Under the pieces are notes generated by a model that saw nothing but the letters and a program-made list of their open reading frames with translations, was not told where the DNA came from and ran no database searches. A stretch of 64,000 nucleotides of DNA from Parafrankia irregularis (GTDB lineage Bacteria > Actinomycetota > Actinomycetes > Frankiales > Frankiaceae), in assembly GCF_001536285.1 (NCBI RefSeq), contig NZ_FAOZ01000007.1:75360-139359 (forward strand), in the 5' to 3' direction. A program made the position numbers and the translations under genes. Shown piece after piece: positions 8,384-13,691 of the stretch (the stretch's first letter is position 1; the number at the start of each line of letters is the position of its first letter).

Positions 8384-8558
8384 GCCGTGCCCGCGATCCG
8401 TCCAGGCGGCGGTCCGGGGCCCGGTCCAGTCGGCTGCCAGGACAACTCTTTGACCGACATGCCGGCACAAGACTGGACGGACGTCCCCGTCGAAGGCATC
8501 GTTTGCCGCGGTTGCTCCGCGGCGAGAGCCGCCACGACGGGAGGGGCGCGGGAGGCCA

Positions 8559-9884
8559 GTGCAGAACCGGACCGAGGACCGGACCGAGCAACGCCTGGAC
8601 CGCCTCCGTGGCCGCGCCCCGCGACGGCGTCACGACGCCCGCACCATCGCCGCGCTGACCCGTAACCCCGGCTGTGCCCGCCGGGCCGTGCTGGACGCCG
8701 CCGGGATCGACAAGGAGCTCCTGGCCCGCCAGATCGGTTTCGCGGCCCCCTTCGGCCAGTCCCCGTTCGCGATCGTCCGCGGCAACGTGTTCGAGGCGCG
8801 GGTCACCGCGGACGAGTGCGCCGCGCTGCTCACCCTGCTCGCGGAGTGCCTCGACTCCGGCTCCGCCTCCGACGCGGGGGCCGGCGTAGACGAGGCGACG
8901 TCCGGCGATGTGATCTACCTGGATCTGGGTGCGTCCGGTGCCGGCTCCGACGCGGAGGGTCCCGCACGGCGGCTGGAGCGCACCGAGGCGGTGCTGCGGT
9001 CCGAGGCGGTGCTGCGCTCCGAGGCCGCGTCCGGCGCCGGTGCGGGGTCGCGTGCCGAGGCGCCGCGGACGGTGCTGCTGGCGCATCCGCTGCTGCGGCT
9101 CGCCGTCGGCGGGCAGGACGTGTACCTCGAGCCCGATCTGCTGGTGATCCGCCCGGACGGACGGGCGCACGTGGTGGAGATCAAGTCCTTCGCCGTCGTC
9201 GACGGTCAGGCGGACGGGGAGAAGGTCGCCGCCGCGGCGGTGCAGGCCGCCGTCTACGTGCTGGCGCTGCGCCGGATGCTCGGCACGCCGGGGGCGGTCT
9301 CCCACGACGTCGTCCTGGTCTGCCCGAAGGACTTCTCGAACGTGCCCATGGCGACCCGGGTCGACGTCCGGCGCCAGTTGCTCGCGCTCGACCATCAGCT
9401 GGCCCGGCTGACCACGGTGCGGACCCTGCTGGACGCACTGCCGCCCGAGCTGACCTTCGATCTCGCACCGGCCGCGGACGGTGCCCCGAGCAGGCCCGCC
9501 GGGGAGCTCACCGAGGCGCTCGAACAGCTGCCGGCCCGCTACGCGCCGGACTGCCTGTCCGTCTGCGAGCTGGCGTTCCGCTGCCGGCAGGAGGCCGCGG
9601 GCCGCACCGCCGCGCTGGGCGCGAGCGTGCGTGAGGAACTCGGCGGCATCGACACCGTCGCCGAGGTCCTCGACCTCGCCGGCGGCACCCGGACACCGAC
9701 CGAGAGCCAGGCCGAGGCCGCCGCCTACCTCATGATCACGGCGCGGATGTACGCGGAGGGCCTGGCGGCCGCGCCGGCCCCGGGCCCGGCTCCGTCGCCG
9801 GCCCCGCTTCTGGCCCCAGCCCCGGCTCCGTCGCCGGCCCCGGTTGCCGCTGCGGCATCCGCTTCCGGTGGTGAGCGCGGGTGA
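8559..9884 (+). CDS. Cas4/RecB-like PD-(D/E)XK nuclease with iron-sulfur cysteines
   Basis: Protein of 441 residues with a PD-(D/E)XK core: Asp193 in a hydrophobic strand (EPDLLV), then Glu207-Ile-Lys209 (VVEIKS). A lone Cys39 near the N-terminus and three C-terminal cysteines (Cys332, Cys336, Cys342; C-x3-C-x5-C) reproduce the split four-cysteine layout of the iron-sulfur clusters in Cas4, AddB and Dna2-type nucleases. A Pro/Ala repeat tail ends the protein. The GTG start has GGGAGG just upstream. Its stop overlaps the next start (GTGA), the same arrangement as between genes two and three, so the three are translationally coupled. The helicase partner supports a DNA end-processing complex. 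The four Cys and the D...ExK are seen; activity is inferred. Confidence 0.75.
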   Translation: MQNRTEDRTEQRLDRLRGRAPRRRHDARTIAALTRNPGCARRAVLDAAGIDKELLARQIGFAAPFGQSPFAIVRGNVFEARVTADECAALLTLLAECLDSGSASDAGAGVDEATSGDVIYLDLGASGAGSDAEGPARRLERTEAVLRSEAVLRSEAASGAGAGSRAEAPRTVLLAHPLLRLAVGGQDVYLEPDLLVIRPDGRAHVVEIKSFAVVDGQADGEKVAAAAVQAAVYVLALRRMLGTPGAVSHDVVLVCPKDFSNVPMATRVDVRRQLLALDHQLARLTTVRTLLDALPPELTFDLAPAADGAPSRPAGELTEALEQLPARYAPDCLSVCELAFRCRQEAAGRTAALGASVREELGGIDTVAEVLDLAGGTRTPTESQAEAAAYLMITARMYAEGLAAAPAPGPAPSPAPLLAPAPAPSPAPVAAAASASGGERG

Positions 9885-11422
9885 CGGCGATCAGTTCGTA
9901 CGCCCGGGCGCTCGCGGTGGCGACCGGGAACGCGGCGCCGACCGCGACCGTGCGCCATGCGCACCTGTCGGCGCGCCCGTTCGTCCTCGTGCCGCTGACG
10001 TTGGCCGGGGAGGCGAACGCCCCGCTCGCCGCGATGGTCGGCACCGCGCGGGACGAGGCCACGCTGCTCCTGGTGGCCCAGCCCCGGAACCGGGATCTGC
10101 GCTTCGCGTTCGCCGACCAGCTTGCCGAGATCATGCTGCCGCACGTCCTGGGCTTCGCGGCGGCGACCGAGGAGCTCACCAACGGGCCACGGTCCCTCGA
10201 CGCGCCGCAGCTCATCGTGCCCAACCCGGCCGGCGTCGAGTTCGTCCGGCTGTTCGCCCGGTCGACCCGCTTCCGCTCGACGGAAGGCGAGTACGCGGTC
10301 GCGCCGAGTGTGCCCGTGCTGGGTCGCTGGCTGACGTTCTTCGCCGAGCGGGCCGAGATCCCAGGGTCCTCGCTGATGCTCGCGGTCACCGACCTGCTCG
10401 GCCTGCACTGGGCTACCGGGCAGAGCGCGCTGGAGGACGCGAACCTCGCCGCGCTGCTGGGATGGATCGACCCACCGCCAGGCGTGCGCGGGGCCGCTGC
10501 CGCCCGGCTGGCCGAGGATCCCCGGCACTGCCCGCCGGCCGGGCCCACCACCGACCCCGGTTTCGACACCGAGCAGCTCGCGCCCGCGATCGCCGCCTAC
10601 GACACGGCCGTCGCGGCGACCGTGGCCGACCCCGCGGCGGCCGCCGCCGACCCGGCGGCGGGGCGGGCCGGCGTCGCGCGTGCGGTGACCCGCCTGGAGA
10701 ACCTGCTGCGTACCCAGCTCCAGCCGACCTGGGACCTCGTCTGGCGTGCCCTCGACCTGCTTGGCGGCCTGCCCGCCGGGGCCTCGGTACCGGCACGCTG
10801 GGAGACCGACCGCGCCCGCTACACCGGCTTCCATACCTACATGGTCGAAGAAGGGCTCCCGCAGGCCCGCCGGGACGGCGCGGTCACCGCCGCGCGCCGC
10901 CTGAACCGGATCGAGCAGGCACAGGCCGGCTACGACGCCGACCGTGCCTTCGACGACCCGCTGGTCATGGCGCAGCACCGGGTGACCGGCGAGGCTTTCA
11001 GCGGCATCGTCGTCGCCGTCGAACGGGACCGCCGTATCCCGAACGGGCGCGGCAAGGGCCGTCTGGTGACCCGTCCGCTGCTCACGGTGCGCACCGAGGA
11101 CCCGGTCCGGCTCACCGTCGGCGCCAAGGTCGTCGCGAGCAGCCGCCGCAGGCAGGAATGCGTCATCCAGGCGATCGACGTCCCACCCGCGGGCGGTGGC
11201 CTGCTGATCACCCTGGAGGCGCGCAGCGGCATGGGCCGGTCGGCGGCACCGGCGCCCGGCACGGTGGCGGAGGTCGGCGAGTCGCTCTGCTACAGCGCGG
11301 TCCTCGCGGACGGTGTGCGCTCCGCCCCGATGCCGGACACCGCCGACACTCCGTGGACCCACGGCGGCCCGCCCGAACCCTACGAACCGACCGAGAAGGA
11401 CACCGCGGAGGCCTGGGAGTGA
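9881..11422 (+). CDS. Unknown protein of the nuclease-helicase operon
   Basis: I do not recognise this 513-residue protein. It starts with GTG overlapping the nuclease stop and its stop overlaps the helicase start, so it is probably made in a fixed ratio with both. It has no membrane helices and no Walker or nuclease motif that I can see. The middle third is mainly helical and Ala-rich. Residues about 390-460 read like a small beta-barrel (GIVVAVERD, RPLLTVRT, VRLTVGAKVVASS), which could be an OB-like nucleic-acid-binding fold. It may be the structural or DNA-binding subunit of the complex; that is inference from position. Confidence 0.7.
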   Translation: MTAISSYARALAVATGNAAPTATVRHAHLSARPFVLVPLTLAGEANAPLAAMVGTARDEATLLLVAQPRNRDLRFAFADQLAEIMLPHVLGFAAATEELTNGPRSLDAPQLIVPNPAGVEFVRLFARSTRFRSTEGEYAVAPSVPVLGRWLTFFAERAEIPGSSLMLAVTDLLGLHWATGQSALEDANLAALLGWIDPPPGVRGAAAARLAEDPRHCPPAGPTTDPGFDTEQLAPAIAAYDTAVAATVADPAAAAADPAAGRAGVARAVTRLENLLRTQLQPTWDLVWRALDLLGGLPAGASVPARWETDRARYTGFHTYMVEEGLPQARRDGAVTAARRLNRIEQAQAGYDADRAFDDPLVMAQHRVTGEAFSGIVVAVERDRRIPNGRGKGRLVTRPLLTVRTEDPVRLTVGAKVVASSRRRQECVIQAIDVPPAGGGLLITLEARSGMGRSAAPAPGTVAEVGESLCYSAVLADGVRSAPMPDTADTPWTHGGPPEPYEPTEKDTAEAWE

Positions 11423-12914
11423 GCGCTGTCGGGGAGGTCGCCGGGCTCGCCGAGTCCGCCGGGCTCGTCGGGCTCGCCGGGTCCGCCGGGCTCGCCGGGT
11501 CCGCCGGGCTCTCGCCGGCGGCGCAGGCCGAGGCGGTCACCCTCGCCATCCTGGACGACCTGCGCGCCGGCCGGCATCGCGGTGTCATCGTCGACTCGCC
11601 GCCCGGAGCGGGGAAATCCACCCTGGTCGTGCGGACGGCGGCGGTCCTCGCCGCCTCCGGTGCCCCGCTGATGATCGTCGCCCAGACCAACGAACAGGTC
11701 GACGACCTGGTCGAACGGCTCTCGGCCCGGCTGGCCGACGAGCTGCCCGCCGCCCGCATCGGACGTCTCGGCCGCACCGGCTACCTTCCGTCTGCCCGCC
11801 TGGCCGGCCTGTCCAACGTCATCACCGCCAGCGACGTCGACAGCCTCGGCGAGCCCGAGGTGACGATCTCGACCGCGGCGAAATGGGCCTACGTCCGTGA
11901 GGGAACCTGGCCGTGGGCGATCGTCGACGAGGCCTACCAGATGCGCTCCGACACCCTGCTGGCCATCGCCGCACGCTTCGAGCGCGCCCTGTTCGTCGGC
12001 GACCCCGGTCAGCTCGACCCGTTCTCCACGGTCACGGGCGACCGCTGGCACGGGCTGGTCTGGAACCCGATGCAGAGCGCCGTGGCGGTGCTGCAGCGCA
12101 ACAACCCCGACCTGCCGGTGCATCGCCTGCCCGTGTCCTGGCGGCTGCCGCGCACGGCCCAGGACGTCGTCGCGGACGCCTTCTACCCCTTCACCGGCTT
12201 CCGGACCGGTACCGACCTCGATGAGCGTGGGCTGGTGGTGCCCGGACGCGCCGAAAGCCCCGTCGACGACCTCCTCGACGTCGCCGCCACGACCGGCTGG
12301 GGCCTGCTGGAGCTGCCGGCGCGCCACACCATGCGGACCGACGCGGAAGCCGTCGCGGCGGTCGCGCAGCTCACCCGACGGATCCTCGAGCGGGGCACCC
12401 TGGCGACGTCGGGCGGCGAAAGACGCGGATCACCCCGGGCCGGATCGCCGTCGGCGCCGCGCACCGGGACCAGGTGGTCGCCATCCGCGCCGCGCTCGGC
12501 GGCCTCGCCGCGACCGAAGGCGACCCGGACCAGCCCCCGCCCGGCTCCGGCTCGGGGCCGGGCTCTGCTGCGGCCGGCGGTGGGACCGGTTCGGCGGGCT
12601 GGGACGGCCAGGTCGTGGTGGACACGGCGAACCGGCTGCAGGGCCGGGAGTACGAGGTCACCGTGGTGCTGCACCCACTGTCCGGCCGGCGGGACGCCAC
12701 CGCCTTCCACCTGGAGGCGGGCCGGCTGTGCGTGCTGGCGTCCAGGCATCGGCAGGCCTGCCTCGTGGTCGCCCGCGCCGGCATCCGAGAACTGCTCGAC
12801 GCCCACCCGACCAGCGACCCGGTGCATCTCGGCGAGCCGGTCAGGTTCCCGGACGGCTGGGCCGCCAACCAGGCGATGCTCGCCCACCTGGCGGCCAGCC
12901 GGGTCCAGCTCTGA
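11419..12914 (+). CDS. SF1-type DNA helicase/ATPase, interrupted by a one-base frameshift
   Basis: Starts with GTG inside the previous stop. The N-terminus has a GLAGSAG tandem repeat. Helicase motifs visible are GAGKST (Walker A, residues 63-68), VDEAYQ (Walker B, Asp170-Glu171), GDPGQLDPF (motif III-like) and VSWRLP (motif IV-like). After about codon 333, near 12411-12422, the frame is lost. The next frame continues exactly where the family should, with ITPGRIAVGAAHRDQVVAIRAAL and later VDTANRLQGREYEVTVV (motif V/VI region), and ends at 12914. Joining the frames gives about 497 residues. One missing base in gggcggcgaaagacg would explain it. It may be a sequencing error, a pseudogene or recoding. 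The original frame stays open to 13038 without family-like content. Confidence 0.75.
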
Positions 12915-13022
12915 GCCAGCCGGCCGGTGGGCCAGCCGCCGGCCTGGCGGTGCGCGGACCCGTTGGCCTGGCGGTGACCCGGCCGCTGACCTGCCGGTCA
13001 GGCGGCCTGGCCGGCCAGTTGG

Positions 13023-13691
13023 TCAGGCGGCCAGGTAGCCGCGGCGGACGGCGTCCCCTACCAGCTGGTTTATGTACTCCCACAGGGCCAGCGAGCCCTC
13101 GGAGACGACCCGCTGGTGGGCGAGCACGTCCTGGGCGCGGACCCCGTGCGTCTGCCAGCTCCCACCGCCGGTCACGTAGTTGAGGATCAGCGGCTGCAGC
13201 CGGTCCAGCGCGCGGGCGAAACGCGCGTCGGGTGTGCGCCGCGCCTCGAACTCCTCCCAGAGCGAGCGCAGCTGGACGGCCTGGTCGCGGGGGAGCAGCG
13301 GGAAGAGCCGGTCGGCGGCGGCCTTCTCCCGGGCCTCCTGCTCGGCGATCGCGGTCTGATCGTAGATGAAGGTGTCGCCCGCGTAGATCTCCACGAGGTC
13401 GTGGACGAGCAGCATGCGCAGCACCCGGCCGGTGTCGACCTCCTCGTCGGCGTACTCGCCGAGCACCACGGCCATCATCGCCAGATGCCAGGAGTGCTCG
13501 GCATCGTTCTCCGCGCGCGAGTCGTCGGCCAGGCGGCTGCGGCGCAGCACGGACTTGAGCTTGTCGATCTCCAGAATGAACCCGAGCTGCCGGGCGAGCC
13601 GCGAGTCGGAGGTGGAGGGCAGCGCGGTGACCGGCTCACCCGGCCCGGCGGGAGACATCGAATCCTGTGGGGTCGGGGCCTGCGTCGACAC
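13023..13691 (-). CDS. HD-domain hydrolase (5'-deoxynucleotidase YfbR/HDDC2-like)
   Basis: A 222-residue HD-superfamily protein. The metal-binding His of NDAEHSWHLA, the His-Asp doublet of LLVHDLVEIYAGDT and a later Asp in FARALDRLQP are all present, the pattern of family members that dephosphorylate deoxynucleoside monophosphates. I chose the GTG at 13691 because AGGAGGAGG lies just upstream, whereas an ATG 12 codons earlier has no ribosome site. It converges on the helicase with 108 bp between. A role in nucleotide pools is likely, and a link to the nuclease-helicase operon is not shown. Confidence 0.85.
   Translation of the reverse strand: MSTQAPTPQDSMSPAGPGEPVTALPSTSDSRLARQLGFILEIDKLKSVLRRSRLADDSRAENDAEHSWHLAMMAVVLGEYADEEVDTGRVLRMLLVHDLVEIYAGDTFIYDQTAIAEQEAREKAAADRLFPLLPRDQAVQLRSLWEEFEARRTPDARFARALDRLQPLILNYVTGGGSWQTHGVRAQDVLAHQRVVSEGSLALWEYINQLVGDAVRRGYLAA

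Follow-up and report, generated by a model that had tools for sequence, protein, structure and literature searches.

A probable DNA2-type helicase-nuclease split over three genes in Parafrankia irregularis, with relatives across the Actinomycetia

Three overlapping genes of Parafrankia irregularis, in a 64,000-nucleotide stretch of contig NZ_FAOZ01000007.1 (the window, meaning the whole stretch analysed), pose the question of whether a nuclease, a protein without a recognizable family and a helicase serve DNA repair or defence against foreign DNA. A reading made earlier from the sequence alone had proposed a DNA-processing or a defence system. We consider it probable that the operon encodes a DNA2-type helicase-nuclease split over three chains, that its chromosomal copies most likely act in repair, and that accessory copies found with SbcCD probably destroy DNA ends. 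The features of the locus are as follows.

8450..8528, + strand: upstream block, starting TTGACCGACATGCCGGCACAAGACTGG, a likely promoter or leader region (alignment of six Parafrankia upstream regions).
8559..9884, + strand: gene 1, PD-(D/E)XK nuclease by its motifs and a profile-profile match, 441 aa.
9881..11422, + strand: gene 2, middle subunit without a sequence family, 513 aa (AlphaFold2 model).
9971..10798, + strand: gene 2 residues 31-306, DEDD-exonuclease-like, probably inactive (VIA-align).
10871..11347, + strand: gene 2 residues 331-489, predicted stalk and 1B beta-barrel, IGHMBP2/SETX/Sen1-like (VIA-align).
11419..12430, + strand: gene 3, first part, predicted SF1B helicase from motif I to about residue 335 (AAA_11; DNA2).
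12430..12914, + strand: gene 3, second part, in another frame (DNA alignment against three congeners; weak AAA_12 match).

The GTGA overlaps that had suggested three coupled genes are present on the + strand at 9881 and 11419. The order nuclease, middle protein, helicase recurs in 25 of 26 homologous loci, so the arrangement is not due to chance, and across 80 named loci the nuclease and middle genes overlap by 4 nt in 36 and lie no more than 100 nt apart in 72. Tight coupling of the trio is not obligatory, since 36 kb separate the helicase gene of a Micromonospora-type genome from the other two. Other genes are sometimes found between the middle and helicase genes: a TnpB-type OrfB_IS605/Cas12f-like gene in one Parafrankia (G002; L048, 11808-12995), and a GmrSD_N gene (PADLOC HEC-05) in two Micromonospora (L090, 9579-11915; L108, 9577-11919).

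The window has all three genes, the third of the expected SF1 type, but here the helicase is not one open frame. DNA alignment against three congeners shows one base absent near 12430 (12420-12440), so that the C-terminal third of the helicase, to 12914, reads in another frame; relatives of P. irregularis have the frame intact. That deletion is what favors regarding the operon of this genome as a decaying pseudogene cluster with a broken helicase frame, an interpretation we find rather doubtful: the nuclease and middle genes are intact, so is the sister genome (middle protein 95-97% identical), and single-base errors, an alternative cause, are common in draft assemblies such as this one of 82 contigs.

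The strong hairpin said to isolate the trio did not hold up. The structure at 12912-13030 has a z of -1.84 (11 of 200 shuffles fold equally well), is unremarkable for the local base composition and sits between convergent genes, which leaves a terminator or hairpin isolating the trio unsupported at the window locus. The nearby TIR gene is real (119-2956, 945 aa, TIR_2 at E 4.9e-11), but it lies in the same place throughout the genus and is separated from the trio by genes for an aldose epimerase, an MMPL transporter and an alpha/beta hydrolase; because of these three genes, and because the block is conserved in the genus, the TIR gene is no evidence of a defence island.

Gene 1 was recognized by its motifs together with a weak profile match, not by its fold. 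The RecB-family residues R74-G-x2-F-E79, D193, E207-x-K209 and Q229-x3-Y233 (motif boxes RGxxFE, LEPD, EIK and QxxxY) are kept in all or nearly all of 107 homologues, as is a set of four cysteines (C39 in 105 of 107, the other two being unread; C332-x3-C336-x5-C342 in 107 of 107), so that the Cas4/AddB/Dna2-style four-cysteine nuclease originally proposed is confirmed at the level of motifs, with its cysteines in at least 105 of 107 homologues. This cysteine pattern, the iron staple, has been described for AddB, DNA2, Cas4 and Bad (PMC7430649). Compared profile to profile with 32 actinobacterial RecB-family sequences, the nuclease scores E 5.7e-5 with the RG box, E-x-K and Q-x3-Y in register. 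Judged by these residues, gene 1 is a RecB/Cas4-family nuclease of the iron-staple type, with a predicted iron-sulphur cluster. No Pfam model matches the window nuclease, and its relatives match weakly only; when the nuclease and the middle protein were compared by single-sequence profiles to one RecB nuclease or to a TM0106 protein, the signal was weak or absent, and PDB sequence searches with the profiles of these two proteins gave chance matches only. As for a CRISPR Cas4, the PADLOC Cas4 model scores only E 0.016 here, and the Pfam Cas4 match in this genome belongs to another locus.

The helicase is more readily placed. Gene 3 in the window matches Pfam AAA_11 at E 1.3e-12 (and AAA_12 weakly in the second frame), and the helicase profile finds DNA2 as its best match in the PDB (E 1.2e-13, profile positions 46-379), followed by IGHMBP2, SETX and UPF1-type proteins. 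A UvrD-type (SF1A) motor was considered and rejected, UvrD models reaching only E >=0.06 where AAA_11/AAA_12 and DNA2/UPF1-type matches appear instead. The alignment to IGHMBP2 begins only at residue 204, past the stalk/1B region. By these matches, gene 3 is an SF1B (DNA2/UPF1-type) helicase core predicted to have no 1B domain of its own.

The middle protein remains as difficult to assign by sequence as first stated, since profile searches find no family for it in Pfam, NCBIfam or PADLOC. Its AlphaFold2 model is confident (pLDDT 90.8, pTM 0.88) but has no Foldseek match in the PDB at E<0.001. By VIA-align, residues 331-489 match the stalk/1B region of SETX, IGHMBP2 and Sen1 (Z 8.8-9.1, the best being IGHMBP2 residues 5-159 at Z 9.1), and residues ~31-306 match DEDD exonucleases such as RNase T and the exonuclease domains of family-B polymerases (Z 8-8.9). 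Z values of 8-9 are barely above the usual background, so confidence in the two domains comes from how well they agree with the neighboring helicase gene: IGHMBP2 appears divided across two genes, its residues 5-159 corresponding to the middle protein and those from 204 onward to the helicase profile. The two assignments cohere because 1B is just the domain absent from the helicase gene, and because nuclease, DEDD, 1B and SF1 motor follow one another as they do in a helicase-fused TM0106 protein. The middle protein thus seems, on its model, to carry the 1B/stalk domain that the helicase is missing. Its DEDD-like domain is probably inactive, since in the homologue alignment the ExoI DxE position reads P-L-x, the ExoII acid is variable, and only the ExoIII-like D186 is kept.

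Several known systems resemble this combination. Bad of Geobacillus stearothermophilus has a RecB-family iron-staple nuclease, a conserved domain without homologues and an SF1B helicase in the same order (PMC7430649), but it is one chain, described as rare and sporadic, whereas here there are three chains, in many loci four, in a system that is widespread and belongs to the Streptomyces core; the central domain of Bad and the middle protein are likened by position in the order alone. The helicase-fused form of TM0106 (TIGR03491) shows at fold level the order nuclease, DEDD/RNase_H_2, SF1 helicase (RNase_H_2 at 317-499, motor from ~745), again in one chain where the trio has three. Its motor matches the trio helicase at E 3e-17 profile to profile, with a weak sequence match where 1B sits. 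No trio protein matches TIGR03491 at E<=1, and no TIGR03491 protein was found in the Parafrankia (this genome included), Pseudofrankia, Streptomyces and Micromonospora-type genomes checked. Eukaryotic DNA2 shares with the trio its helicase (the best solved match), cysteine layout and RecB motifs, but the trio is spread over three genes and has a DEDD-like domain added. AddAB, RecBCD and AdnAB likewise bring a helicase and a RecB-family nuclease to DNA ends, but with UvrD-type SF1A motors rather than a DNA2/UPF1-type motor. A fusion of nuclease and helicase in one polypeptide occurs neither in the window nor in the 80 named loci, and since the two are on separate genes the trio is a split variant and not a member of the DNA2/Bad group. 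The trio is not Bad or TM0106 by membership, but appears to work like them. The Dna2-like DNA processing first suggested is well supported by a DNA2-type helicase, by iron-staple-type motifs, and by a middle protein apparently carrying 1B/stalk.

The middle protein, used as a marker, occurs in 6 of 6 genomes of the genus Parafrankia, in 8 of 8 of the neighboring genus that holds Pseudofrankia asymbiotica, and in 112 of 118 (95%) good-quality Streptomyces genomes (their assignment to Streptomyces being inferred), and altogether in at least 490 Actinomycetia loci (Micromonospora, Actinomadura, Streptosporangium, Nonomuraea, Amycolatopsis, Nocardia and others). Another Frankiaceae genus has it in 1 of 13 genomes, in an accessory-type copy. 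In the family holding Nocardia, the matches of the middle-protein profile are confined to a single genus, which leaves no sign of a fused Bad-type central domain there. Flanking genes are shared within Parafrankia, and also among 8 of 8 Streptomyces core loci. Present throughout its genus and with shared flanking genes, the window trio is a core, vertically inherited locus. The sequence-only reading had named a core, vertically inherited locus with a known repair function as the finding that would tell against it; core and vertical it is, and no assigned function for the trio, in repair or otherwise, was found in the literature searched. Earlier work (PMC7430649) presented the DNA2-like enzymes of bacteria as rare and sporadic, and could neither explain their central domain nor assign them a role. 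Against that described rarity, the split DNA2-like form seen here belongs to the core genome of Streptomyces and recurs widely in Actinomycetia, and its middle subunit gains a structural reading, as a putative pseudo-DEDD protein supplying the motor's 1B domain in trans.

In many loci a fourth gene precedes the trio. U1, a conserved protein of ~260 aa, is encoded directly upstream of the nuclease gene in about 60 of 80 named loci, with a 4-nt overlap at the junction in 35 of 62. It belongs to no Pfam family, and in its moderately confident model only an N-terminal helical hairpin is matched, the remainder being uncertain. A search without a positive control gave no match to U1 in the Parafrankia, Pseudofrankia, Streptomyces (core type) and Micromonospora-type genomes.

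The upstream region of the Streptomyces core loci points to DNA damage. The consensus of the RecA-NDp/PafBC promoter is reportedly TTGTCRGTG-N8-TANNNT, as given by Gamulin et al. in 2004. Immediately before the nuclease gene, 8 of 8 Streptomyces core loci carry this motif, as do 39 of 40 further genomes (47 of 48), nearly always with the same single mismatch in the -10 element, as against about 1 of 107 and 0 in shuffled upstream controls. Across 320 kb of the eight loci, both strands counted, there are 7 occurrences at no more than one mismatch, every one of them upstream of the trio. A LexA box is found upstream in 3 of 107, within the shuffled range. RecA-NDp promoters drive DNA-damage genes in Actinobacteria, a UV-inducible S. 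coelicolor gene among them (PMC5087735; PMC8223512), but control by PafBC is unproven in Streptomyces (PMC9380542). No PafBC motif at one mismatch or fewer was found in the window; Parafrankia has instead the block of about 80 nt at ~8450-8528, nearly identical across the six upstream regions. This block contains CAAGACT, which is also the end of the promoter motif in some Streptomyces.

Core status in Streptomyces, with its linear chromosomes, might also suit an accessory factor of replication or recombination, acting on 5' flaps, at stalled forks or in keeping up the ends of the linear Streptomyces chromosomes, and not in break repair, the more so as some second copies lie near chromosome ends. 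The trio, however, is equally found in Parafrankia, Micromonospora, Nocardia and Actinomadura, whose chromosomes are mostly circular, which counts against such a role, and placement near the ends is typical of Streptomyces accessory genes in general. The preference of DNA2 and Bad for 5' flaps and overhangs (PMC7430649) is in its favor, and we rate a role of this kind as quite improbable.

The accessory copies have different company. Fourteen such loci were collected (Streptomyces second copies, some at chromosome ends, two Streptomyces plasmids, and one Frankiaceae genome), and in 11 of the 14 SbcCD lies divergently beside the U1-nuclease-middle-helicase genes; in two it is broken or partial. 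Wadjet (JetABCD), of types I and II, has no sequence relation to the trio but is a neighbor in six of them, Wadjet I following in three and Wadjet II genes lying near in three; most genomes seen carry the trio without Wadjet. Three Amycolatopsis loci have sbcD and sbcC behind the helicase gene in the same orientation, apparently as one operon; in two of the three only a few nt separate the helicase stop from the start of sbcD. Chance is an unlikely reason for SbcCD to lie alongside in several differing arrangements. Eukaryotic DNA2 acts with Mre11-Rad50 in end resection, and SbcCD, with which the accessory copies pair, is the bacterial Mre11-Rad50; no RPA or RecQ partner of the trio was identified. 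A contig from a viral collection (L260, 1345-8952) reads integrase, U1, nuclease, middle protein, helicase, C5 methyltransferase; the profiles of U1, the nuclease and the middle protein match there at E 2e-12, 1.7e-18 and 8e-16. Three Streptomyces second copies (L070, L176, L178) are without SbcCD, and in L178 the next gene encodes a 1058-aa SNF2/Helicase_C protein.

With such neighbors, the family could be primarily an anti-phage or anti-plasmid defence, a complex that recognizes and shreds foreign DNA ends, with the chromosomal copies being old domesticated defence loci. Such a role would fit the copies that Streptomyces carries next to Wadjet and SbcCD, on plasmids and at chromosome ends, and likewise the integrase-linked four-gene copy beside a C5 methyltransferase, the GmrSD-like gene within two Micromonospora loci, and the fact that some Bad members, including that of Geobacillus, adjoin DNA methyltransferases (PMC7430649). 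We nevertheless regard defence as the primary role as unlikely. The trio is core and syntenic in Parafrankia and Streptomyces, has a damage-type promoter in the latter, and in the window is flanked by housekeeping genes; none of 50,697 phage records matches it, and no PADLOC defence-system model claims it (the best generic helicase match being MkoA at 2.9e-8 over ~60 residues). For the window locus the defence half of the original proposal is thus not upheld, and support for it is indirect, from the accessory copies; recruitment of the mobile copies to defence is plausible.

For the DNA2-type reading that we prefer, we infer that the three chains assemble, with an iron-sulphur nuclease, a pseudo-DEDD/1B structural subunit and an SF1B core. 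Like DNA2 and Bad (PMC7430649), the complex would engage a DNA end or a 5' flap, translocate in the 5'-to-3' direction and cleave single-stranded DNA at the motor. Chromosomal copies would process DNA ends in repair, in Streptomyces under the damage-type promoter, and copies at chromosome ends, on plasmids and in mobile DNA would destroy DNA ends together with SbcCD, including DNA cut by a neighboring Wadjet. Such disposal is suggested by two pairings, one with SbcCD, which is an end-recognizing nuclease, and one with Wadjet, by which linear DNA is spared (PMC10586767). More tentatively still, and as something we would not expect to hold in full, a four-subunit system (helical U1, iron-sulphur nuclease, pseudo-exonuclease/1B, SF1B motor) together with SbcCD might be the bacterial equivalent of Mre11-Rad50/DNA2 end resection, and its mobile form the DNA-disposal partner of Wadjet, degrading linear DNA after Wadjet cuts circular plasmids. 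Because SbcCD, Wadjet and a damage-type promoter are repeatedly linked to the operon, its role can be tested directly in laboratory Streptomyces; if true, bacteria would offer a pathway of the Mre11-Rad50/DNA2 kind that is open to genetics, and a step so far missing from plasmid defence might be filled in. A core repair-type operon with mobile copies beside genes that attack foreign DNA would link bacterial DNA repair and defence.

Related genes also occur in a different setting. Plasmids of Mycolicibacterium and Rhodococcus (L168, L169) and of Euzebya (L170) carry a relative of the middle protein (profile E 2.4e-9) with a related helicase and no evident nuclease, and these operons possibly represent a separate uncharacterized system. 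The first two follow genes for a MoxR ATPase and a VWA protein, and that of Euzebya follows one for a C5 methyltransferase.
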